Below are positions 36,325 through 46,623 of a stretch of DNA of 64,000 nucleotides, piece after piece. Each line of letters starts with the position of its first letter. Position 1 is the stretch's first letter. Under the pieces are notes generated by a model. The model worked only from the letters and a program-made list of their open reading frames with translations, was not told the DNA's origin and made no database searches. The translations under genes were made by a program, and so were the position numbers. This DNA is from Lysobacter sp. Root690 (GTDB lineage Bacteria; Pseudomonadota; Gammaproteobacteria; Xanthomonadales; Xanthomonadaceae), in NCBI RefSeq assembly GCF_001427785.1, contig NZ_LMHM01000017.1, forward strand, positions 146,662 to 210,661. The letters run 5' to 3'.

Positions 36325-36353
36325 TATCTCTCCATTAGGCCCAATTCAAAAAA

Positions 36354-36377
36354 GGCGGCCAGTTGGCCGCCTTTTTT
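36354..36377. terminator. Bidirectional rho-independent terminator after aceE
   Basis: The stem ggcggcc / ggccgcc with loop agtt is followed by six T on the plus strand and preceded by six A, so it works in both directions. It serves aceE and the minus-strand island operon ending at 36414, and it marks the island's left edge. Confidence 0.92.
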
Positions 36378-36413
36378 GATCAAATATCTGAATAAAATGT
36401 CCTGAATGCGGTG

Positions 36414-37430
36414 TCAAACAATGACGCGGCTGAAGAACGGATAGTGTCGATAGAATAGTTTATAACTTTCTATTGCCTGTCTGGTTTTCTCAGGCGCGCC
36501 TTTAACGAGTCTGATGCCAAGAGATCTGCTGATCTGGCTAGGGCTCTTTGCTGGGAGGCTCTTGTCAATATGAAGGCGTTCACGGACAGACATTTCCGGA
36601 ATGCTAATTCGTATTGGATTGGTTCGAGGAGTGCCCCAGGCTGTGGTCGATAGTTTCCACTGCCTTGTCTTTGTCTCTTGAAGAAATAGTTTCTGATCAA
36701 TTTTGTTGGGAAGAATGACTCCTGTGTGGGTTAGCATCTGTTGTTCGGAGTCGGCATAAACAAAAGATGTTAGGGGTTGAAAGTAATTCCCAGGCGTTCC
36801 TGCCACACCAGCTTTGACCGCATTTTCGACTGCTAGCAAGAGAAGTTTTGAGTATCCATTGCGGTCTAAATCTTCATCAGTCAGCTGGATGGTTGCTGGA
36901 ATGTAGTCCCCCAAGCGCCGTCGAGCTTCGGCAGTCCTCTGCTGTAATAGTTCTATCTGGTTATCTGTGCTTGGGCTAGGGTCTAAAGTGCGCTCGTTTG
37001 CATTGAGCGTGATTTTAAACACATCAAAAGGCCCGAGTTTAGATATAAGCGTCTCAGCTTGTTCAAGATGTCCTCCTGCATCTGCCGCTGACGTAAAATC
37101 GAGCCAGGCAATCACAGGGGATGTTGCGATGAAACCGTCTATAAAGCTTCGTGATGTGCATTGACGATAGTCAATGCAGTTAATTGGAGAGTTCCATTGC
37201 TGTCGATTGAAAACGTGCCTGTCTTCTTCAATGGATATCATTTTTTTTAAGCCTAGCGCAGAGTGCACCAGTTTAAAGTCCTCGGAGTGCGGGCCTGCAA
37301 ATCCTATGTATGCATAATCTTGAATGTGGAACTGAGTTGATCGCGATAGGCGTTGGAGCAGCTCGATGAACACTGCGCGATCTACTGCTTTATTCTGCCG
37401 AAGGCTATAAGGAACGAATCCACCGCTCAC
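36414..37430 (-). CDS. Rossmann-like protein of unknown function, partner of the GHKL ATPase
   Basis: A 338-residue cytoplasmic protein that I cannot assign to a family. The N-terminal half has a possible Rossmann pattern: YAYIGFAGPHSEDFKLVHSA (glycine-rich turn), then MISIEEDRHVFNRQQW (acidic end of the next strand) and VIAWLDFTSA. That is the order of a SAM-binding methyltransferase fold, but no clear catalytic motif is present. The C-terminal half contains FVYADSEQQMLTHTGVILP and a charged helical end. The start overlaps the stop of the ATPase gene by 4 bp, so the two are translationally coupled and probably act together. Base composition is clearly AT-richer than the core genes. The fold assignment is tentative. 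Confidence 0.8.
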   Translation of the reverse strand: MSGGFVPYSLRQNKAVDRAVFIELLQRLSRSTQFHIQDYAYIGFAGPHSEDFKLVHSALGLKKMISIEEDRHVFNRQQWNSPINCIDYRQCTSRSFIDGFIATSPVIAWLDFTSAADAGGHLEQAETLISKLGPFDVFKITLNANERTLDPSPSTDNQIELLQQRTAEARRRLGDYIPATIQLTDEDLDRNGYSKLLLLAVENAVKAGVAGTPGNYFQPLTSFVYADSEQQMLTHTGVILPNKIDQKLFLQETKTRQWKLSTTAWGTPRTNPIRISIPEMSVRERLHIDKSLPAKSPSQISRSLGIRLVKGAPEKTRQAIESYKLFYRHYPFFSRVIV

Positions 37431-38857
37431 TTGGAAGCCCTCGCTAAGATTCTGTCAAAGCAAGCTTCTCCCACGCTGTCCGGGGACATGTCGTCGCGGT
37501 CAAATAGAAATTCTGAAACCAGAAGGATTTCATTTGGTGGTTTTCTGAATTTTATTGAAACCTTGTCATCTCTCGTCTTTGGTGGGCGAGGTAAATTAGG
37601 GACGAATTTCTTTCCGCCTAATCCTTTACGCACATCTGACCATTCGCCTTGCTTAACGGCGAGCTTGGCGCTAAAGGGTTTTACCGCGCTCGCTGATTGT
37701 ATTAGAGCGTCGCGCTGCTTTGTATCTAGTTTCCAATGGTTCGTGAAGTTTGTGAAATGCTTCAACCCTTCACGCATAATATCTTTGACGGTGAGGTATA
37801 GATCAGAACTCGCGTCAATTCCTCGCTTTGTCGTCGTAACAGGAAGTTTTCCCGCATCTGTGCTGTGGAAGCGCACCATGCCCGCGATAGCAATAAACTG
37901 AGGGTGATATGCAGGAACACCAGCTTCCCCCCATCCAGTTAGGCGAGTCTTGTCGCTATAGACCACTACGCGGTCGTTGCAAATTACGCTCCAGCCACAC
38001 TGCTCTTTGTTTCCTGTTGCACCCTGTCCTTCAAGCTCCTGTTCTACTTCCTCTGGCGTAGGGAGGCGTCTATAAAGACCTATGACCAAGTCGACATCTA
38101 CGCCATTGCGGTTAGTTGTGTAAATAAATGGATCAATTCTCTGGTCTTTTGGCATCTTCGGGTCGGACTGCAAAAGCCCGAGAACTGCGGGCTTTATGAC
38201 CTCGCCGTTTAGTTGGATCTGAAAGCCTTTTTGAATTATGAAGCTATAATGGGTTGATATCGTGCTCGCAAGCCGCAAGAGGAACTGGCTTTTTTGATTA
38301 TCGAAATCATGAGAAATGCCGGAGTAAAGCTGGTTGACTTGAATATAAGTGCCATGTGTGCCTCTGACCGATTCAGGAGCGGTTTTTTGCGAGAGGTTTG
38401 TGATCGGTAATTGCCAGTCATCGTCGTCGTCGAGCCAATCCGATGACACCGCAACACGAAAGATCGACCCTTCGTGATTAGTAGTGACACTAGACTCCCG
38501 CCCTATTTTGAACAGGGCCCGCTTCATTCCTATCCCATATAGACCGACAGTTGGAAGCTTCTCAGCCTTCATATCGGCTGGGCGGCCCAGCCGAAAGGCA
38601 TATTTTTCAGCAACTGTTCGAGGAATCCCCCCACAGTTGTCGCTGATTGAAAAAGTGCTCTTGCTGATGTTTAAGCTTGCGTGGTAGCCCTTAAATGGTC
38701 GTTCCCGGTCTTTAGGAGGCCGCTTCGCTATTTGCCGATGTACGCCGTCAATGCAGTTGTCAATTAAGTCAAGGATCGCGTCTTGCAGGTCGATATCGCG
38801 AGTTAGCATTCCGACGAAAAATTCTTTCGATGGACGTGCGTTTGCTACAGCTGCCAT
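37427..38857 (-). CDS. GHKL-type ATPase, MORC/MutL-like
   Basis: A 476-residue protein with a complete HSP90-like ATP-binding (Bergerat) fold: N box AILDLIDNCIDGVH (Asn34), G1 FSISDNCGGIPRT (Asp73) and G2 VGLYGIGMKRALFKIGR (about 105-120). The G2 form YGxGxKxxxxxIG is that of MORC and MutL-type ATPases rather than kinases. A second domain (about 230-370), with WSVICNDRVVVYSDKTRLTG and the lysine in PVTTTKRGID, matches an S5 transducer domain. The C-terminus is basic (SIKFRKPPNEI). Prokaryotic MORC-like ATPases are known from restriction-modification neighbourhoods and probably move or clamp DNA. It lies 20 bp downstream of a cytosine methyltransferase gene and overlaps the Rossmann-like partner. 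Confidence 0.85.
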   Translation of the reverse strand: MAAVANARPSKEFFVGMLTRDIDLQDAILDLIDNCIDGVHRQIAKRPPKDRERPFKGYHASLNISKSTFSISDNCGGIPRTVAEKYAFRLGRPADMKAEKLPTVGLYGIGMKRALFKIGRESSVTTNHEGSIFRVAVSSDWLDDDDDWQLPITNLSQKTAPESVRGTHGTYIQVNQLYSGISHDFDNQKSQFLLRLASTISTHYSFIIQKGFQIQLNGEVIKPAVLGLLQSDPKMPKDQRIDPFIYTTNRNGVDVDLVIGLYRRLPTPEEVEQELEGQGATGNKEQCGWSVICNDRVVVYSDKTRLTGWGEAGVPAYHPQFIAIAGMVRFHSTDAGKLPVTTTKRGIDASSDLYLTVKDIMREGLKHFTNFTNHWKLDTKQRDALIQSASAVKPFSAKLAVKQGEWSDVRKGLGGKKFVPNLPRPPKTRDDKVSIKFRKPPNEILLVSEFLFDRDDMSPDSVGEACFDRILARASK

Positions 38858-38877
38858 GCAGTATCCCTCCTTGCGAA

Positions 38878-40005
38878 CTAGTTAATTTTCTTTGCAATCC
38901 GGGCTAGCAACTCTTCCGCGACGATTGGGCTCACACTATTCCCAATTTGCCTGAATGAGTGCCACTTTGTTGGGTTAAAAACAAACCAATCTGGAAAGCC
39001 CTGTAGACGAGCGGCTTCACGAGGAGATATCACTCTTGAAACTGTCGGATGAATAGGGCGAACAGCTTGATAGCTGCCTCGATCACTATTGGTTCCCGCC
39101 CGAAGCGTTGGGCAGAATCCGTCCAGTCTTAGTCGAGGGGACCTATAGATGCTATCTACTTGTCCCGGTTTTAGCTTTGAGAAACGTTCGATCGTCTCTG
39201 GCGCGTGCTCAGTACCCAAAAAACCAGATACCAACCGCTTTGATCGCAGCCGTGCCAGAGCCTCTGAATTACCGACACCGTCCGGTACTCCGTGCAGCGC
39301 CCGGTTCGCGAAGATACTGTCGGGCAACTCACCAATCTTGCGCCAGCTCTGGGCTTCGGTTTGCCAGTTGGAGCGGACGCTCGGAAGGCCCTTTAGAGCT
39401 GCAGCCACTGTCACGAATTCGGTGGTTTCATGTGGGGAGAAATAGTCTTCATTTATTGTCTCGACTCGATCTGGGTCGAATCCAATAAAGAAAATTCGCG
39501 TTCGGGTTGTTGGGGCTCCGTATCGATGGGCTTCTACGCGGATGGGGTTAAGTCGAATATATGATTTTGGCAGCTGCGACATGGCCTGGTCTACGAACTC
39601 TCGCGTCTTGTCCGACAAGATGCCAGGGACATTCTCGGCTACGTAGAAGGCGGGCATTGTTTCCGAAACCAATCTAAAGAAGTGACCGAACAGATCATTT
39701 CTCGGATCTGCCATTTTCCGTCTTCCGATCAGACTAAATCCTTGGCAAGGAGGGCCTCCAATGAGCCCTGATAGCTGCCGACTTTTTAGTCCTGCGACCT
39801 CAAGTAACTGAGCCCCTGAGAGTTGGGCGACATCTTGCTGAATATGTGCGGTAGTAGGGAAATTCTCCGCGTGCGACTTTGACGCGATGGGATCCAGCTC
39901 GGCGCAGGCCGCGACTCGAAAGCCTGCGCGTGCAGCACCAAGGCTGAGCCCTCCGACGCCGGAGAACAGGTCGATAACGTTTGGTGTTGAATCCGGCTTA
40001 GGCAT
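38878..40005 (-). CDS. DNA (cytosine-5)-methyltransferase
   Basis: A 375-residue C5-methyltransferase with its motifs in order: I VIDLFSGVGGLSLGAARAG, IV LIGGPPCQGFSLIGRR with nucleophile Cys87, VI FYVAENVPGIL, VIII TTRTRIFFIGFD, IX around RVISPREAARLQGFP and X SFRQIGNSVSP. The target recognition domain lies at about 215-300, and the site recognised cannot be read from sequence. I chose the start MPKPDSTPNVIDLF at 40005; the open frame further upstream overlaps the divergent Vsr gene and is unlikely. A Vsr endonuclease is divergent 73 bp away, as is common for Dcm-type enzymes, since T:G mismatches arise from deaminated 5-methylcytosine. It probably heads the three-gene minus-strand operon. 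Confidence 0.93.
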   Translation of the reverse strand: MPKPDSTPNVIDLFSGVGGLSLGAARAGFRVAACAELDPIASKSHAENFPTTAHIQQDVAQLSGAQLLEVAGLKSRQLSGLIGGPPCQGFSLIGRRKMADPRNDLFGHFFRLVSETMPAFYVAENVPGILSDKTREFVDQAMSQLPKSYIRLNPIRVEAHRYGAPTTRTRIFFIGFDPDRVETINEDYFSPHETTEFVTVAAALKGLPSVRSNWQTEAQSWRKIGELPDSIFANRALHGVPDGVGNSEALARLRSKRLVSGFLGTEHAPETIERFSKLKPGQVDSIYRSPRLRLDGFCPTLRAGTNSDRGSYQAVRPIHPTVSRVISPREAARLQGFPDWFVFNPTKWHSFRQIGNSVSPIVAEELLARIAKKIN

Positions 40006-40078
40006 ACGTTGGATGATATGGCAAAACAACTGGTACCGTGGTGGCGAGACGCTGATTGGCGGGAGCTGCCTTGTCGTT
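40006..40078. promoter_or_regulatory. 73-bp divergent promoter region, methyltransferase / Vsr
   Basis: It separates the start codons of the methyltransferase and the Vsr endonuclease, so both promoters must lie here or inside the opposing genes. The Xre protein encoded 450 bp away could act on it as a controller protein. I did not find a convincing C-box dyad. Confidence 0.4.
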
Positions 40079-40489
40079 ATGGCTGACAGATTGTCCCCGG
40101 ATGCGCGGAGCAGGCTAATGGCTCGAATCCGCTCACGCAACACAATTCCCGAGCTTCGTGTTCGATCAATTCTGCATCGATTGGGCTTTCGTTTTAGGTT
40201 GCACAAAAAAGACCTGCCAGGCACGCCTGACATTGTGCTTGTTAGCAGGCGTACCGTAATTTTTGTGCACGGCTGCTTCTGGCACGGGCACTCATGCAAA
40301 GTGGGGAAGATGCCGAAGTCGAGGATTGAGTACTGGGAGGCGAAGATTGAAACGAACAGACGCAGGGATGCGTTGAAACGAAAGCAGCTGCGCAAGCTCA
40401 ACTGGAAGGTCTTAACGATCTGGGAGTGCGAGCTGAAGGCGGTGGATAAGCTAGAGCGCAAGCTGGACAAAAAAATACGTTTAACGTAA
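40079..40489 (+). CDS. vsr: Very short patch repair endonuclease
   Basis: A 136-residue Vsr endonuclease that nicks DNA next to T:G mismatches produced by deamination of 5-methylcytosine, starting repair to C:G. The start MADRLSPDARSRLMARIRS is as in the family. Motifs are NTIPELRVRSILHRLGFRFR, the catalytic aspartate in DLPGTPDIVL, and the zinc and active-site residues in VFVHGCFWHGHSC, with a lysine-rich C-terminus. It is divergent from the cytosine methyltransferase it protects against. The base composition is lower in GC than the core genes. Vsr-fold proteins are also found as restriction nucleases, but the close fit to Vsr motifs favours repair. Confidence 0.93.
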   Translation: MADRLSPDARSRLMARIRSRNTIPELRVRSILHRLGFRFRLHKKDLPGTPDIVLVSRRTVIFVHGCFWHGHSCKVGKMPKSRIEYWEAKIETNRRRDALKRKQLRKLNWKVLTIWECELKAVDKLERKLDKKIRLT

Positions 40490-40525
40490 TTTACGCTCCG
40501 GAGGTTTGAAGCCATCCTTATCAAC

Positions 40526-40879
40526 ATGGCCCAGACCGAAGTAGACGCCCGCTCCATCTTTGCTCAGCGCTTGAAGCAAGCCAGGGAGGATGCCGGGCTA
40601 ACCCAAAAGGAGCTGGGCATGACCATAGGTCTACCGCAAGAAACCGCGGCCGTGCGGATCAACCGGTACGAGAAGGCGGTCCATGACGCCGATCTGGCGA
40701 CCGCGCGCCGCATCGCCGAGGCCTTAGGCGTCCCGCTCGCCTTCCTCTACGCCGAAACCGACACCATGGCCGAGGCCATCCTGACCTTGGGCCTGTTGTC
40801 CAAACCCGAGCAGCGCAAGGCCGTGGCCGACCTCAAGGCTCGGCTAGCGCAAGCTAGCGCGCAGGATAAGAAGGCCTAA
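40526..40879 (+). CDS. Xre-family (Cro/C1-type) transcriptional regulator
   Basis: A 117-residue helix-turn-helix protein. The HTH is in residues 10-65 (FAQRLKQAREDAGLTQKELG, then GLPQETAAVRINRYEKAVHD), followed by RRIAEALGVPLAFLYAET, where the helix bundle closes. A C-terminal helix (LLSKPEQRKAVADLKARLAQ) may dimerise. It is more GC-rich than its neighbours in the island, resembling host codon use. It follows vsr by 36 bp. It may control the methyltransferase/Vsr divergent promoter, as C proteins do in restriction-modification systems. A decayed partial copy of this gene lies at 42728-42912, beyond the next gene. Confidence 0.9.
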   Translation: MAQTEVDARSIFAQRLKQAREDAGLTQKELGMTIGLPQETAAVRINRYEKAVHDADLATARRIAEALGVPLAFLYAETDTMAEAILTLGLLSKPEQRKAVADLKARLAQASAQDKKA

Positions 40880-40982
40880 TCTATCGGCTGGATGCGTGCT
40901 CGATGGCTTTGACGCTGGCGCATCCGAAGCGTTCGGCCTGCCTCACGCCGAACAACCGTCCATCTCTTAGTCCTACACCAAC

Positions 40983-42674
40983 ATGACTGATCCAGTGCAC
41001 CTTCTTCAGGAGGCTGTCGAGCTTGAGCGGCATATCCTTAGCGGATATGAGAAGCCGTCCGAAGCATTAACGTTGGAAACTCTTCGTGCACTGGATTTCG
41101 CACATTGTCGTGAGCTTTTTCCAGAGTTCCAGTTGTCAGATAGCTCTGAATTGCAAATAGAGAGTGTCCGTCAGTGGTCGATCAATGCTGCCTTGAAGCG
41201 AGTTTTTCCCATAGAGCTGAGCGCGAGCGAACCCGAAATACCTCTCTCAACTGAGACGAGCGCGGAACATGTAGACGAATTCCTGCTTAGGATGGGATGG
41301 CTCTCAATGGCTGAACGGCAACTTTCGTTGCTGCGTTCGGGCGCGCTAAAAGGGGTGGTCGACGGCCGCAAAGTGCAAGGGATGACCCTGCTTGTTCTAT
41401 CGATACAGGATCCCAGTGCGTATCGAGAGCAAGTGGGTTATGGCGGTCTCAAGTGGCTCAGTGACATGGTGGTTGCCGAGGATCGCCCCAAAGAAGAGAT
41501 CTTGGAGCAGCGCTATATGCAATTGCTTCCTCGTTTGAAGGAGTATATTCGCAGTAGTGAGTCGCCTGATGAATTGCCGTTCGACGATGTCGATCAATAC
41601 TTTCATGAGTGGGCTGTTCTATATCTACGAAGGATGTCATTTAGAGACATGCTCGCCGATGATGATTGTTTTGGCGGCCGTCAATTCGCTCAGTATGTAA
41701 GCGTACTTGAGGCGTTGTCCGCTATGTCACAGCAAAGGTTGTGCTATTCCGCGCTTATGTGTGCGAACGGGACAGGGACTAGCGTCCGGAACATTCTCAC
41801 CGGCGGATCGAGCTACGACGATCTGGTCGAGTCAATAGCTAGTTTCCTTGACGCTGCGAAGCAAGAGGTCATTGAGATACTGGATCACTTGATGTTGAGC
41901 CCCGACAATGCCGAGACGCATTTGGGAGGAGACGTGTTGACTTTTGCTCCAGCCGTGAGGACGAGTAGCCAGTTGGTCTTGCTTCCTACATACGGTTTAG
42001 AACGTAATCCATTCACATTTCTTTGGACGGAGCTACGAAGGCGTTACGAAAAGGATTGGTTTGAAGCAGCCAATCGAAGGGAGGCTCGTTGGGTATCTGA
42101 GTTGCGGATGCAATTTCCTGCGCCTCGCTGGCGATGTCTGGATGGAGTCAAATTGAAGCGTGAGGGCAAGGTGCTCACCGACGTTGACTTCGCGGCGCAC
42201 GACACACAATCATCAAGTGTGATTCTGTTTCAGCTTAAGTGGCAGCAGCCATTTTTGAGCGACAACAAGTTACGCCGCAACAATGCAAGCAATCTGGTAC
42301 GAGACAGCAACAAATGGATTTCGGACATAGATAGCTGGGTGATGGAGTTCGGCATTGATGGGTTGAAAGAGCGTCTTTCAATAAAAACGGGTGACTTATC
42401 CGTGCACTTAGCCGTCCTGGGGCGCTATCACGCACACTTCACTCTAGAAGAAGAGCATGACGCGCGAGCTGTTTGGTGTGATTGGGGGAATTTTTTACGT
42501 CAACGTCGCCAGTATGCCGATGCATCGGCTAAGGAGTTCATTGACCGGCTTAGCGAGTCGATGGAACAGGCGGCAGCGGAGGTAATACCCGATTCGTTCT
42601 TTGTTCCAGTCGGCGAGGTCATGCTATTGATCAATCCTCAGAGAGTGACTCGTGCGGAAGACGGGGCAGGCTGA
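40983..42674 (+). CDS. Unknown large protein with possible PD-(D/E)xK nuclease core
   Basis: A 563-residue cytoplasmic protein that I do not recognise. The first 340 residues are mainly helical and acidic. The C-terminal third has a pattern compatible with a PD-(D/E)xK nuclease: upstream acidic residues in REARWVSELRMQ, then LTDVDFAAHDTQ (Asp402) and, 15 residues later, ILFQLKWQQ (Gln417-x-Lys419). That QxK form is seen in Mrr-like and related nucleases. Its codon use and AT content match the methyltransferase/ATPase part of the island. It sits between an Xre gene and a truncated copy of that gene. If it is a nuclease, it could be the restriction partner of the methyltransferase; this is inferred and needs structural modelling. 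Confidence 0.72.
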   Translation: MTDPVHLLQEAVELERHILSGYEKPSEALTLETLRALDFAHCRELFPEFQLSDSSELQIESVRQWSINAALKRVFPIELSASEPEIPLSTETSAEHVDEFLLRMGWLSMAERQLSLLRSGALKGVVDGRKVQGMTLLVLSIQDPSAYREQVGYGGLKWLSDMVVAEDRPKEEILEQRYMQLLPRLKEYIRSSESPDELPFDDVDQYFHEWAVLYLRRMSFRDMLADDDCFGGRQFAQYVSVLEALSAMSQQRLCYSALMCANGTGTSVRNILTGGSSYDDLVESIASFLDAAKQEVIEILDHLMLSPDNAETHLGGDVLTFAPAVRTSSQLVLLPTYGLERNPFTFLWTELRRRYEKDWFEAANRREARWVSELRMQFPAPRWRCLDGVKLKREGKVLTDVDFAAHDTQSSSVILFQLKWQQPFLSDNKLRRNNASNLVRDSNKWISDIDSWVMEFGIDGLKERLSIKTGDLSVHLAVLGRYHAHFTLEEEHDARAVWCDWGNFLRQRRQYADASAKEFIDRLSESMEQAAAEVIPDSFFVPVGEVMLLINPQRVTRAEDGAG

Positions 42675-42727
42675 GGGTTGCACGGTCTTCTCGACGACGA
42701 CCGTTGCTTTACGGATCAACCTTTACT

Positions 42728-42912
42728 AGAAGGCAGGCCATGACGCCGATCTGGCGATCGCGCGCCGCATAGCCGGGGCATTCTCGTCCCGCTCGCCTTC
42801 CTCTACGCCGAAACCAAGGGCGCGATAGTTCCAACCTGGGGCAAGCTGTCCAAACCCGAGCAGCGCAAGGCCGTGTCCGAGCTCAAGGCCCGACTGGCGC
42901 AAGCGTCTGCCA
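42728..42912 (+). pseudogene. Decayed partial copy of the Xre regulator gene
   Basis: About 185 bp closely match the second half of the Xre gene (40671-40860), including catgacgccgatctggcga, ctcgccttcctctacgccga and aaacccgagcagcgcaaggc. It has lost the start and the HTH, carries a one-base deletion and other changes, and cannot be translated into the same protein. With the intact gene it forms a direct repeat around the 40983-42674 gene, a sign of insertion or duplication at this place. Confidence 0.85.
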
Positions 42913-42984
42913 GCCGCGCGGGTTCGTAAGCCGGGCTCTGGCGTGCGCAGTGCCGGCGTTGCGTCGGACCGAACGGGCGTTTCT

Positions 42985-43293
42985 TCAGCCCGAAGCGCTC
43001 CGCCCAAGGCATGTTCGGGCCTGAGCGTGTTCCCGAACTCCATTGCGGAAAGCCATCGAGGCCTTCGAGAATCCCGCTGAGGGATTACGGAGAGTGAATT
43101 CGGAACTCGCGAGAGCGAAATACGCACTCCCGAAGGCCGGCGCCATACTCGCGAAAGCGAAATTCACTCTCCAGAAAGCCGATTTCACTTTCGCGAGTCC
43201 CAAATCCGTACTCCGGTAAGCCTCCGTCGCACTCGCGAGTCCGAAATTAGCTCTCGGTGGTCCCGCCGCGGCCTTCGCGAAGCCGAAAAAGCT
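42985..43293 (-). repeat. 42-bp-period repeat tract readable as 14-residue repeats
   Basis: The hexamer tcgcga recurs at 43107, 43149, 43191, 43233 and 43275, and tcgaga at 43065, so the period is exactly 42 bp. On the minus strand one frame is open from a stop at 43294 to 42985 and gives 14-residue units such as ANFGLASATEAYRS, VNFAFASMAPAFGS and AYFALASSEFTLRN. There is no ATG at the beginning; a TTG at 43203 is the first plausible start. It may be a remnant or a small repetitive protein. The rest of 42675-43507 shows no gene apart from the Xre remnant. Confidence 0.7.
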
Positions 43294-43507
43294 TTAACGG
43301 AATGACTCGTCGGCTTTCCTGTAAGGCCTTTTCGCTTTCCGGAATGTATTTTTTGCTCATCGATATGCCTTGGTGGCACACCGGGCCCGCGTCGCGGTCT
43401 TCCGCTGACAGGTTCATCCATCGGGCGCGGCAAACCCTGACCCACCCGCGACGGCAGGCATCGGCCCGTTTCGCACGGCGGGCCTGATAAGAAACAAGAG
43501 AAACGCC

Positions 43508-43900
43508 ATGTGGTTTAAGCAAGCAAAGACGCTCGATGGATGGGTGGATGCCTACCTCGAGGCGAACGAGGTCCCGGTCGAGCAGCGGGATGTGAACGGC
43601 CCGCACTGGTGGCCGATCGAGCGCGCGATGGTGACTTCCCGGCAAGTCAGCCCGGACACCCTTTGGGAGTTCATTCTGGCGGTGCTGGCAAGGAACCCGC
43701 CCGAGCACACGTTCTATTGTCTGGCGGCAGGGCCGCTGGAAGAACTTATCGGATACTACGGTGCCGATTTCATTGATCGCATCGAGTCGATAGCTCGCGA
43801 CGATGAAGCCTTCCGCGAACTGTTACACGGCGTTTGGAAGCCGCCTGGGGTCAGTGCGGAAGTGTGGCGGCGCGTTGAACTGGCCAGAGACATCATGTGA
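43508..43900 (+). CDS. Small DUF6869-like protein
   Basis: A 130-residue cytoplasmic protein, tryptophan-rich and acidic. The pattern WPIERAMVTSRQVSPDTLWE, then LAAGPLEELIGYYGADFIDR and FRELLHGVWKPPGV resembles DUF6869 proteins. These are small proteins often found near toxins or other accessory genes, and some relatives are suspected immunity or adaptor proteins. The function is unknown. The start ATG at 43508 is preceded by a purine-rich stretch (aagaaacaagagaaacgcc) that can serve as a ribosome-binding site. GC content is back to core level here, so it lies outside the AT-rich island. It is followed by a predicted T4SS immunity/effector pair. Confidence 0.7.
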   Translation: MWFKQAKTLDGWVDAYLEANEVPVEQRDVNGPHWWPIERAMVTSRQVSPDTLWEFILAVLARNPPEHTFYCLAAGPLEELIGYYGADFIDRIESIARDDEAFRELLHGVWKPPGVSAEVWRRVELARDIM

Positions 43901-44137
43901 AGTCAGCGGTAACGCCGTTCGCGCCGTATCGACCTGGTGTGCGGGCAAGCGGATCCGAATCAGACGATGACGAGCGTCAACGAAATCTTCGTGTGTGCGT
44001 GCCAAAGAAAGTCACATGTTTTCACCATCATGCCTCTTCAGTTGGGCGATCGAACGCATAAATTCCACAGCGGTCGTTGTTCATCGCATGACGGCTCGCT
44101 TATGCTCAATGCATCCTCTCACTATGCGGTGCAAGCA

Positions 44138-44809
44138 ATGCGCAACTTTCAGTTTCGCTGTGTTGCCGCAACTATCCGGCCGTATGCAGTCGCAGCCGCG
44201 CTGATCGCCTTCAATGTCAGTGCCTGCGCTCACAGCCCGACATCGCGGCGCAACGCCGCTACTACCCAGCAGGCCCATGACATGACCTCGTCCGAGCCCT
44301 ACAGAATCAGCGCGGCCAGCGAGCATCCCGATTTGACGCCAGGAGAGGTCGCGCGGCGGATGCTCAGGTTGGCGGAAGCGCTGCAGTCGATGGATGAGCT
44401 GAACGTCGAGGATGTGAAAGAGCGCACTGGCTTGCCGCTCAAGTACGCGCCGCTGGGCAAGGTGCATGCCTTCGCCGTGAAGCTGCCGGAATCTGGTTGG
44501 AGCTACGGAGTTACCTACGAGCAGGACGGGTCCTACAAAGCGGTCGAGCTTGCCTATCGCCATCCGGATACCAATGAGGCGTCGATGTCACCGGTATGCG
44601 AGGTCGACTTCGCGGCGGCATCCAAAGCGCTGAAAGACGCGGGCTACAGCAGCAAAATGGAAGCCGACGAAATAGGGCAGTCATCGGAATACCTCTTTCA
44701 ACGCGCCCGCGTGACAGTACGGGTGGTGCCCGCCGCTGAGTTCGCGCCGATCAACGGAAAACCCGCCCGTTCCTGCATCCAGCAACTGATGATCTCTTCG
44801 ACGGATTGA
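44138..44809 (+). CDS. Predicted periplasmic lipoprotein, immunity protein for the adjacent T4SS effector
   Basis: About 223 residues starting MRNFQFRCVAATIRPYAVAA; an in-frame ATG at 44102 is the alternative. The signal sequence ends in a lipobox (LIAFNVSACAHS, Val-Ser-Ala-Cys), which predicts a lipid-modified periplasmic protein. The mature domain has about 150 structured residues (PGEVARRMLRLAEALQSMDE, then GWSYGVTYEQDGSYKAVELA) and two cysteines (SPVCEVD and ARSCIQQL) that could form a disulfide. Its stop lies 2 bp before the effector start. In xanthomonads, cognate X-Tfi immunity lipoproteins are encoded directly upstream of X-Tfe effectors, so this is the expected arrangement. The immunity role is inferred from that context. 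Confidence 0.75.
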   Translation: MRNFQFRCVAATIRPYAVAAALIAFNVSACAHSPTSRRNAATTQQAHDMTSSEPYRISAASEHPDLTPGEVARRMLRLAEALQSMDELNVEDVKERTGLPLKYAPLGKVHAFAVKLPESGWSYGVTYEQDGSYKAVELAYRHPDTNEASMSPVCEVDFAAASKALKDAGYSSKMEADEIGQSSEYLFQRARVTVRVVPAAEFAPINGKPARSCIQQLMISSTD

Positions 44810-44811
44810 AT

Positions 44812-46623
44812 ATGGCAAGGATGAACAAGCAGCTGGATGCTGCCGTCGACGCGTTTGCGAGTTCGGCGGGTGTGACTGACGCTCATGTTGAACGCCTGCG
44901 CGAGACGCTGGTCTCGGACGACAAGTTGCTGGAAAGGATGAACAAAGCTGCCAGACAGGAACAACTGACGTCATTCGCGGTTTCAGCCAGGCCGGACAGC
45001 TTGGTGGGAGACATCGACATTCGTAGCGGCGTTATCGGACTTCCGCTTAATGCGTTGGCGCAATCTGAAGGCGCCTCGAAAGGCCGGTTGGATGCGGCGC
45101 TAAGAATTCAGGAAATGTCGCTGCGTTTCGGAAATGCCACTTACAAAGACGAAGCCGGCGTTACTGTTGCGGTATCGCAGGAGATGGTGAGCAACCTTCA
45201 GACGGCGATCAATGCATCTCCCGTGCTGGCTGATCGCATCGGGGCCGCGATAAGCGCCGAGCCAAAACCACATCTGAAGAGCTTCGGGATTCTGCCCCAT
45301 GGACAGGGCGCTGGGGCCGCTTACGATGGCGAAGAGAAGACAATGCTGATTCCGGCTTATCGACTGCAGAACAAGTCGTCGGCCAATAGCTCGGGATTCG
45401 ATGTCGCGCCGATGGTTTTTACGCTGGCGCATGAGACGCAGCATGGCTTTAATCATGGCAGCAAGCGTGAGGCATGGGCCGCCTTCGACGCCGAGATCAA
45501 GCAGATCGCGCGCGACAAAGATCCCATCAACGACTACACGCAGCCCATTGGGAAGTTTCTTCAGGCATCGCGGGAGGACGAGGCGCGAGCCGAGATTGCG
45601 GGCTGGAACGCGGTCGTGAGCATGAAGCGTCAGGCCAACGGTGAAGTCGGCCTTGAAGATATGGGCCGAACGAGCGGAATTCGCTCGCATATGCTATTGC
45701 AGCGAGACGACGCAACGCAGCAGTTAGTCGGAAAATCCGGTTTAACGTTCAATGCGGATTCGACCATAGAACCAACGCCGGGCAACGTTGAGGCCATGGG
45801 TAAGAACTACTTCGACCGCAAGCCCAAAGCGGATGGAGTCGAGTCGGCCGAAACGGCCACGCTTGGGCCGCACAATGAATCCGACTACCAGAACTACTAC
45901 GGGAGGAACGCAATAGAGCGGGTAATCCAGTTCGATCGCGCGTATGCGCATTCGGTGGGAGGCGTCCAACCGAAGATGCACATCGATATGGGCAGGCTGC
46001 GCTTGAGCGAGCGGCTGATGGAACGGCTGGGGCTGGAAATAAGCCCGCACCCTGAACGTCCCCATGCGTACTACGACACCAGCCAATCACCGCCAGCGCT
46101 TCATCATTTCGAGCACACCAAGACCGGCTCCAGATTGAATCAACATGTTCCTATCGAATCGAGCGCTTTGGGCGACCCGCCAGGCCCGATAGGCAATAGT
46201 CGGTTGTCGCCGATCCAACAGGATCATCCGGATCACGGCCTGTACTCCCAGATCGCGACCCAGGTTCGACAACAGGATCAACAGCACGGCCGCCAATGGG
46301 ACGAAACCAGCGAGCGTATGACCGCAAGCCTGTTGGTTCTGGCGAAAGAAAATGGCCTGTCGCGGGTGGATCACGTGGTCTTCAGCGCCAGGAACGAAAA
46401 AGTCGCCGCGGGCGAGCACGTATTCGTCGTCCAAGGGCGGCTCGACGACCCGGCGAATTTGCGGGCGCATATGAAAACGGACGAGGCCGTTCGAGCGCCG
46501 GAGGCGGTTTCGTTCGAAAAGATAGAGGCGATCAACGAGCGTATCGCCCGGCAAACGGCTCAGGCGCAGGCACTCGGGCAGATGCCGGAGGAGCCAACCA
46601 AGGCGCCGGGTATGGGGCGATGA
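44812..46623 (+). CDS. Predicted antibacterial T4SS effector (X-Tfe) with HETQH metalloprotease motif and XVIPCD
   Basis: A 603-residue protein starting MARMNKQLDAAVDAFASS; a TTG two codons earlier is possible. Residues 1-280 contain VAPMVFTLAHETQHGFNHGS, where His207-Glu-Thr-Gln-His211 is a zincin HExxH motif, with candidate third ligands in the EDEARAEIAGWNA segment. A middle region (about 325-440) includes ESDYQNYYGRNAIERVIQFD. Residues about 471-600 match the XVIPCD pattern: DHPDHGLYSQIATQVRQQDQ, then ERMTASLLVLAKENGLSRVD and VFSARNEKVAAGEHVFVVQG, with a glutamine-rich end. XVIPCDs dock effectors on VirD4 of the antibacterial X-T4SS. It is probably injected into the periplasm of rival bacteria. 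The substrate of the peptidase is unknown. Confidence 0.87.
   Translation: MARMNKQLDAAVDAFASSAGVTDAHVERLRETLVSDDKLLERMNKAARQEQLTSFAVSARPDSLVGDIDIRSGVIGLPLNALAQSEGASKGRLDAALRIQEMSLRFGNATYKDEAGVTVAVSQEMVSNLQTAINASPVLADRIGAAISAEPKPHLKSFGILPHGQGAGAAYDGEEKTMLIPAYRLQNKSSANSSGFDVAPMVFTLAHETQHGFNHGSKREAWAAFDAEIKQIARDKDPINDYTQPIGKFLQASREDEARAEIAGWNAVVSMKRQANGEVGLEDMGRTSGIRSHMLLQRDDATQQLVGKSGLTFNADSTIEPTPGNVEAMGKNYFDRKPKADGVESAETATLGPHNESDYQNYYGRNAIERVIQFDRAYAHSVGGVQPKMHIDMGRLRLSERLMERLGLEISPHPERPHAYYDTSQSPPALHHFEHTKTGSRLNQHVPIESSALGDPPGPIGNSRLSPIQQDHPDHGLYSQIATQVRQQDQQHGRQWDETSERMTASLLVLAKENGLSRVDHVVFSARNEKVAAGEHVFVVQGRLDDPANLRAHMKTDEAVRAPEAVSFEKIEAINERIARQTAQAQALGQMPEEPTKAPGMGR

Follow-up and report, generated by a model that had tools for sequence, protein, structure and literature searches.

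A three-gene unit in the genome of Lysobacter sp. Root690 probably represents an anti-phage system that is still unnamed. It lies in a window of 64,000 nucleotides (nt; contig NZ_LMHM01000017.1, positions 146,662 to 210,661), to which all coordinates given for this strain refer, and occupies the minus strand. The first gene of this trio (38878-40005) encodes a C5 cytosine DNA methyltransferase, which matches DNA_methylase in Pfam (185 bits), dcm in NCBIfam (146 bits) and MTase_II in PADLOC (328 bits); its start was placed at 40005 because the Pfam match begins just after this position, the open frame continuing to 40557. After a gap of 20 nt comes the gene of a 476-residue, paraMORC-like GHKL ATPase (37427-38857; HATPase_c_3, 9e-11), whose stop overlaps by 4 nt the GTG start of the third gene (36414-37430). 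The latter encodes a 338-residue protein of the Pfam family Methyltransf_35 (PF20553), a predicted class I S-adenosylmethionine (SAM)-dependent methyltransferase. In the window, the trio is likely a single operon. Three divergent genes on the plus strand, for a Vsr mismatch endonuclease, an Xre regulator and a 563-residue protein, complete the set of six that a sequence-only reading of this locus had listed, and all six open reading frames (ORFs) are present. That reading had described the third protein of the trio as a Rossmann-like unknown coupled to the ATPase. The coupling is borne out by what follows; the protein itself belongs to a named family.

To what extent the trio recurs was established with a GHKL profile made from eight proteins. 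It retrieved 423 relatives from a genome collection, of which the 80 best-scoring loci were kept; 69 loci from viral contigs were added, and the ORFs of all loci were scored with profiles built in this analysis. Methyltransf_35 was found at 78 of the 80 genome loci when all ORFs were considered (77 on the picked ORFs) and at all 69 viral loci. The C5 methylase was present at 70 of the 80 genome loci and 68 of the 69 viral ones, and Vsr at 27 and 5, respectively, so that the proposed linkage of the GHKL ATPase with a C5 methylase and Vsr holds across loci. Trio loci are spread over a dozen or more phyla, taxa being taken from the sequence records. Their order is conserved: 147 of 149 Methyltransf_35 ORFs are immediately preceded by a co-directional GHKL gene, with the 4-nt overlap in 77. 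The two exceptions are L037, where the GHKL gene was missed by ORF picking and a tblastn match is present, and the second fragment of Methyltransf_35 in L103. The nearest C5 methylase lies within 2.2 kb of the Methyltransf_35 ORF in 68/79 genome and 69/70 viral cases.

When Methyltransf_35 served as the anchor instead, 45 viral loci were obtained, most of them from contigs already in the set. GHKL was present in 43 of the 44 newly fetched ones; in the remaining locus, 7 nt separate the start of the Methyltransf_35 match from the end of the contig. Relatives of the window protein occur in 5 of 398 genomes of the phylum, including this one, with GHKL adjacent in all; the PF20553 profile recovered 2 of 299 genomes, both among those five, and the search for Methyltransf_35 without GHKL is thus a small one. 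The two proteins also co-vary. Over 93 non-redundant loci, the GHKL and Methyltransf_35 distance matrices correlate at 0.80, and those of GHKL and of Methyltransf_35 with the C5 methylase at 0.44 and 0.43; in each comparison, none of 300 permutations was as high. Because of the co-occurrence, the gene order and the difference between these correlations, the GHKL–Methyltransf_35 pair behaves, as judged from sequence comparison, as one machine, the methylase being its usual but more exchangeable companion.

Both members of the pair retain the residues of their predicted ATP and SAM sites. In the ATPase, D30, N34, D73, G77, G108, G110 and K344 are invariant in 147 of 147 sequences (the window protein and 146 partners). 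The Methyltransf_35 protein of the window matches PF20553 over its full length (residues 2-337; 262 bits, for a curated cut-off of 27) and, on structure prediction and structural matches, was modelled confidently with a class I SAM-methyltransferase fold; D111 is conserved in 97/97 sequences, and G45 and E68 in 94/97. Sequence searches of the PDB with two of the locus's families gave no significant match. The name Methyltransf_35 was not found in the literature searched, many subscription papers, supplements and figures being outside the scope of this search, and PF20553, searched solely in combination with other terms, was likewise absent from the papers found.

The trio also resides in phage cargo sites. 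Of 5426 complete Escherichia coli genomes, 47 carry 80% or more of the GHKL–Methyltransf_35 query. The single genome that was read has nothing but the trio between gpQ (portal) and gpA (replication endonuclease) of a P2-like prophage, with no nuclease annotated between the two genes. The gpQ–gpA site is a reported hotspot of anti-phage systems (PMC9122126); the word 'methyltransferase' is absent from the main text of that paper. In the filamentous phage PfAC20, the trio corresponds to ORF1-3, ORF2 being Methyltransf_35 (E = 2.6e-54), and ORF9 is annotated as another cytosine methyltransferase; the text of PMC11878078 lists this phage with an incomplete restriction system, comprising a cytosine methyltransferase only. 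The pair is also embedded in a class 1 DISARM locus on the Microvirga plasmid pR24_2 (L024, 7971-10391), where the annotation places it between an MmeI-like gene and drmA. That the pair is a DISARM component was considered and rejected as a rule: this is one plasmid locus, and Drm proteins compared with 153 loci (L033-L185) matched only DrmD in L146.

On balance, we lean slightly towards a defence unit guided by 5-methylcytosine (m5C) and dependent on ATP and SAM, made of the C5 methylase, the GHKL ATPase and Methyltransf_35 in that gene order, with Vsr as an optional member and the Xre and 563-residue genes as neighbours. The C5 methylase would mark a sequence on host and prophage DNA, allowing self to be told from non-self. 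The ATPase and Methyltransf_35 would form one complex: the former would serve as a DNA clamp gated by ATP, and the latter, with SAM bound, would sense or modify nucleic acid where the mark is missing. Unmethylated incoming DNA would then be blocked by modification, by trapping in the clamp, or by cutting through a borrowed nuclease, and Vsr would repair the T:G mismatches that follow m5C deamination.

Apart from extra GHKL genes, which occur at six of the 80 genome loci, once as a second copy of the pair, BLAST clustering of the neighbouring proteins encoded within 4.5 kb placed every further family at 4 or fewer of these 80 loci. Pfam scanning of 130 flanking proteins yielded phage integrase (6), HNH_2 (4) and HhH-GPD (3) among the commonest 25 of 188 families, and PADLOC scanning yielded HNH (4), plus one or two matches each to several restriction or defence families, among the commonest 25 of 181. 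Thus no single nuclease family recurs beside the trio, the most frequent, HNH_2, accounting for 4 of the 130 proteins: the methylase gene of a type II restriction-modification system is present, and a restriction nuclease recurring as one family was not found. Vsr as the general nuclease of the trio was ruled out by its presence at only 27/80 genome and 5/69 viral loci. As a separate observation, a second, longer GHKL protein (546-610 residues) adjoins the trio in L042 (8225-9865), L048 (12987-14732), L050 (1021-2853) and L051 (13755-15446); that of L042 ends in a Hypoth_Ymh domain.

Several observations weigh against an m5C-guided defence unit. The 80 genome loci, as the best-scoring of 423, are biased to close relatives. 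One of them, L068, carries GHKL and the C5 methylase without Methyltransf_35, and L073 carries GHKL alone. Six cyanobacterial loci (L038, L040, L045, L046, L049 and L054) possess the pair with no C5 methylase in the flanking DNA covered, three of them with full flanks on both sides, and the pair therefore need not act with a linked methylase; some of these cyanobacterial pairs sit among NADH-dehydrogenase or glycosyl hydrolase genes. The N-box of GHKL enzymes usually has a glutamate, and the corresponding position is an aspartate in all 147 sequences, so hydrolysis could be slow. Most of the folds closest to that of Methyltransf_35 belong to RNA methyltransferases, and the target of Methyltransf_35 might be RNA. 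Finally, nucleases of many different families, one each, may stand beside many loci.

Among the alternatives, the one that survives best is conventional restriction-modification, in which the pair itself would cut unmethylated DNA through a cryptic site and be comparable to the BbrUII/HgiDII enzymes; we consider it rather unlikely. The pair does stand beside a C5 methylase, co-directional or convergent, and the NCBIfam BbrUII/HgiDII model (NF050001) weakly matches the GHKL domain of the window protein (15.4 bits) and of the PfAC20 ATPase (29.6 bits). However, these scores are far below the cut-off of 550 bits, and the model spans 659 positions whereas the window ATPase has 476 residues and no recognisable nuclease domain. 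Past residue 345, only D348 and K376 exceed 90% conservation among D, E, K and H in the 147 sequences and no nuclease motif is evident, while Methyltransf_35 has a predicted methyltransferase fold. A further reading, which we regard as doubtful and slightly less probable, is restriction that needs no nuclease: the methylase would mark self, and the GHKL clamp with its SAM-methyltransferase partner would trap and silence, or chemically mark, unmethylated phage DNA without cutting it, as a bacterial counterpart of eukaryotic MORC silencing.

It is improbable that the pair has no role in defence and instead makes use of methylated DNA, or protects it, as an epigenetic or RNA-modifying regulator such as a MORC-like DNA compactor. 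The cyanobacterial pairs with no linked methylase, some among housekeeping genes, and the RNA methyltransferase-like folds would suit such a regulator, but the finding of the pair at the P2-like gpQ–gpA site, in a filamentous phage and within a DISARM locus argues against it, as does the presence of the GHKL gene in 1 of the 20 genomes of the genus. Least probable is that the six genes form one system in which the 563-residue protein is the nuclease: although this protein has a probable nuclease domain and family ties to Vsr (see below), its family was found at 0/149 trio loci (80 genome and 69 viral) and the pair at none of the 13 other loci fetched for the 563-residue family, so that co-occurrence speaks against the six-gene system, and the more host-like Xre gene separates it from the trio. 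The single system proposed by the sequence-only reading is thereby abandoned, and the trio is the part of its gene order that recurs in other genomes; its suggestion that an ATP-driven clamp selects targets for the large protein to cut fails as a general mechanism, and the large protein may still help at this locus.

The gene for the 563-residue protein (40983-42674, plus strand) is a module apart from the trio. Profile searches assigned families to the other five proteins and none over cut-off to this one. Among nine family members, E367, T399, D400, D402, Q417, K419 and Q421 are invariant, and QxK is an accepted variant of the PD-(D/E)xK motif, as in Mrr. In an AlphaFold2 model, the blocks 371-420 and 441-480 reach a predicted local distance difference test score (pLDDT) of 79-87, residues 421-440 are weaker, residues 1-167 are under 50 and the whole model stands at 53.5. 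The order of elements in the predicted domain is helix-strand-strand-strand-helix-strand, and structural matches are to PD-(D/E)xK nucleases, the overall model being poor. Because of the conserved E, TDxD and QxKxQ stretches and this order of elements, the protein is probably a separate nuclease with a C-terminal PD-(D/E)xK domain (about residues 356-480), in agreement with the earlier proposal. Five plasmid records, a record labelled as phage, four other genomes among the 398 and four viral loci contain relatives of it; additional viral-contig searches produced no contigs beyond those already found.

The Vsr gene (40079-40489, plus strand; TIGR00632, 151 bits), which may be seen as an optional accessory for m5C repair, is divergent from the methylase. 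The family matches begin at residue 65-66 of a 200-residue ORF that starts upstream of 40079. Vsr is present in 6 of the 13 other loci of the 563-residue family (L022, L023, L026, L027, L028 and L029) and the C5 methylase in three (L027, L028 and L032). The three relatives closest to the 563-residue protein (37-38% identity) are each immediately preceded by a co-directional Vsr gene; the window has the same arrangement, except that Xre comes in between. The 563-residue gene is a separate gene often near m5C genes. In a Vsr tree, the window protein pairs with a same-genus Vsr located behind aceE (genome G606; support 96/89), and groups neither with the Vsr linked to the 563-residue family nor firmly with that linked to the trio; the tree is therefore silent on which module owns Vsr. 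Two further observations concern this family. In L022 (2941-8722) and L023 (1978-9722), the relatives are preceded by Vsr and by a gene of very large size (1169 or 1817 residues) with a TrwB-like ATPase domain, an arrangement that is perhaps another unnamed system, and in L028 (3127-7579) the relative is interrupted by an IS66-type element.

The trio follows aceE, the end of which is present in 20/20 genomes of the genus. The 3' side of this gene (window positions 36325-46600) is variable: each of the seven sister genomes read (L247-L253, of 19) has a different cargo, with a GC content of 0.445-0.526 in stretches picked by eye. Ten sister cargo proteins were scanned, with restriction- or defence-type matches in four of the seven genomes. 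L252 carries a GmrSD-type gene, L248 a ResIII helicase, L247 a PD-Lambda-5-like gene close to a C5 methylase, and L251 a double-HATPase gene with a C5 methylase and Vsr; L253 has a GNAT gene and a weak PADLOC candidate, and the cargo proteins scanned from L249 and L250 had no family match. Xre homologues accompany this other cargo in five of the seven loci. Stenotrophomonas geniculata likewise has, beside aceE, a trio related to that of the window (GHKL identity 45-48%). From the varied cargo, the recurrent Xre and the S. geniculata trio, the aceE end looks like a defence hotspot with Xre as part of its scaffold.

The Xre gene of the window (40526-40879, plus strand; HTH_3) matches Control_protein in PADLOC (65 bits), which suggested a dedicated controller of the trio. 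This was set aside on account of the other cargo that Xre homologues accompany, and we read the gene as a component of the hotspot, outside the trio; it may still have a regulatory role on the trio. A degenerate second copy, missing from the sequence-only reading, follows at about 42700-42930 on the same strand, sharing direct repeats of 83, 31 and 97 nt with 79-100% identity at a spacing of about 2050 nt. Intact and decayed copies lie between cargo blocks in the window, L248 and L252, and may serve the site as handles for recombination. Located 3' of the decayed copy, a 42-nt unit is present in four imperfect tandem copies (43105-43272; 62-100% identity to the first). Further on, a 605-residue protein (44806-46623) contains an HExxH-like stretch and presumably resembles proteins that members of this bacterial family secrete; four of the seven sister loci show DNA homology to portions of it.

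Base composition is consistent with acquired cargo. GC per kb is 0.475-0.569 over 37-43 kb, compared to mostly 0.64-0.73 across the window, and remains at 0.57-0.63 up to about 48 kb. Single genes have values of 0.468 (Methyltransf_35), 0.486 (GHKL), 0.528 (C5 methylase), 0.520 (Vsr) and 0.512 (563-residue gene). Xre, at 0.638 and with a GC of 0.80 at third codon positions, is closer to host composition, aceE being at 0.651. The island was therefore correctly described as lower in GC than its flanks, with the exception of Xre. Its acquisition by transfer agrees with the finding of the GHKL and 563-residue proteins in this genome alone among the 20 of the genus, and its defence-type character is likewise supported.

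How does the trio relate to known systems? Among the closest are the paraMORC/MORC ATPases (Iyer et al. 2008, PMC2292703), which, in the text of that paper, are GHKL ATPases found beside C5 methylases and Vsr-type nucleases, laterally mobile and proposed as DNA-structure motors. The window ATPase has the GHKL domain with conserved ATP-binding boxes. In the 147 sequences, however, no pair of columns with both residues above 50% corresponds to the ExxxH feature of paraMORC2, and the C-terminal E-D-ExK nuclease domain of paraMORC3 was not found. About 70% of the MORC neighbourhoods described there hold a superfamily II helicase, whereas no helicase is among the commonest 25 flanking families here and the constant partner is Methyltransf_35; the uncharacterised domains in a figure of that paper could include this family. 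The module of HEF_HK and Response_reg_2 (Bellieny-Rabelo et al. 2021), as presented in the text of PMC8011034, likewise combines a GHKL gene, an adjacent partner and a C5 methylase, often with Vsr, and HNH_2 is the best represented nuclease near that module as it is the most frequent near the trio. Neither HEF_HK nor Response_reg_2 was detected in the Methyltransf_35 or GHKL protein of the window at E up to 1.

Similarly, MzaB of the anti-phage system MZA is a GHKL ATPase, but the window protein matches it with 28.1 bits for a cut-off of 850, and no other MZA component is among the matches listed for the six window proteins. Nor did these six proteins, which were the window ORFs scanned, match DrmA or DrmB of the DISARM core (for the methylase, among the best 25 of 62 families); the methylase scores 162 bits with DrmMII, below its 328 bits with MTase_II. 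With PADLOC 2.0.0 and NCBIfam release 20, the pair received weak GHKL-domain matches (MzaB and BbrUII) in the window, E. coli, PfAC20 and three other loci (for L037, the GHKL protein only, in PADLOC). The association of a GHKL ATPase with a C5 methylase and Vsr is thus a known theme (PMC2292703, PMC8011034); the new elements, set against the text of these papers without their figures and supplements, are Methyltransf_35 as a constant partner and a compact form of three genes.

That GHKL ATPases encoded next to C5 methylases work in restriction was predicted in 2008 (PMC2292703), and the evidence in the text of that paper and of PMC8011034 is computational. The trio provides a defined minimal unit for this prediction: three genes, one constant partner and a compact version in an E. 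coli P2-like prophage that is amenable to ordinary laboratory tests. If the trio protects without a nuclease, loci of this kind, described as an incomplete restriction system in the text on PfAC20 (PMC11878078), would have to be read differently, and a direct test of the link proposed between restriction ATPases of bacteria and MORC silencing in eukaryotes would become possible. If nuclease-free restriction is true, a cassette of this kind, carried by P2-like prophages, a filamentous phage and bacteria of many phyla, may resemble the ancestor of eukaryotic silencing by MORC proteins and DNA methylation.

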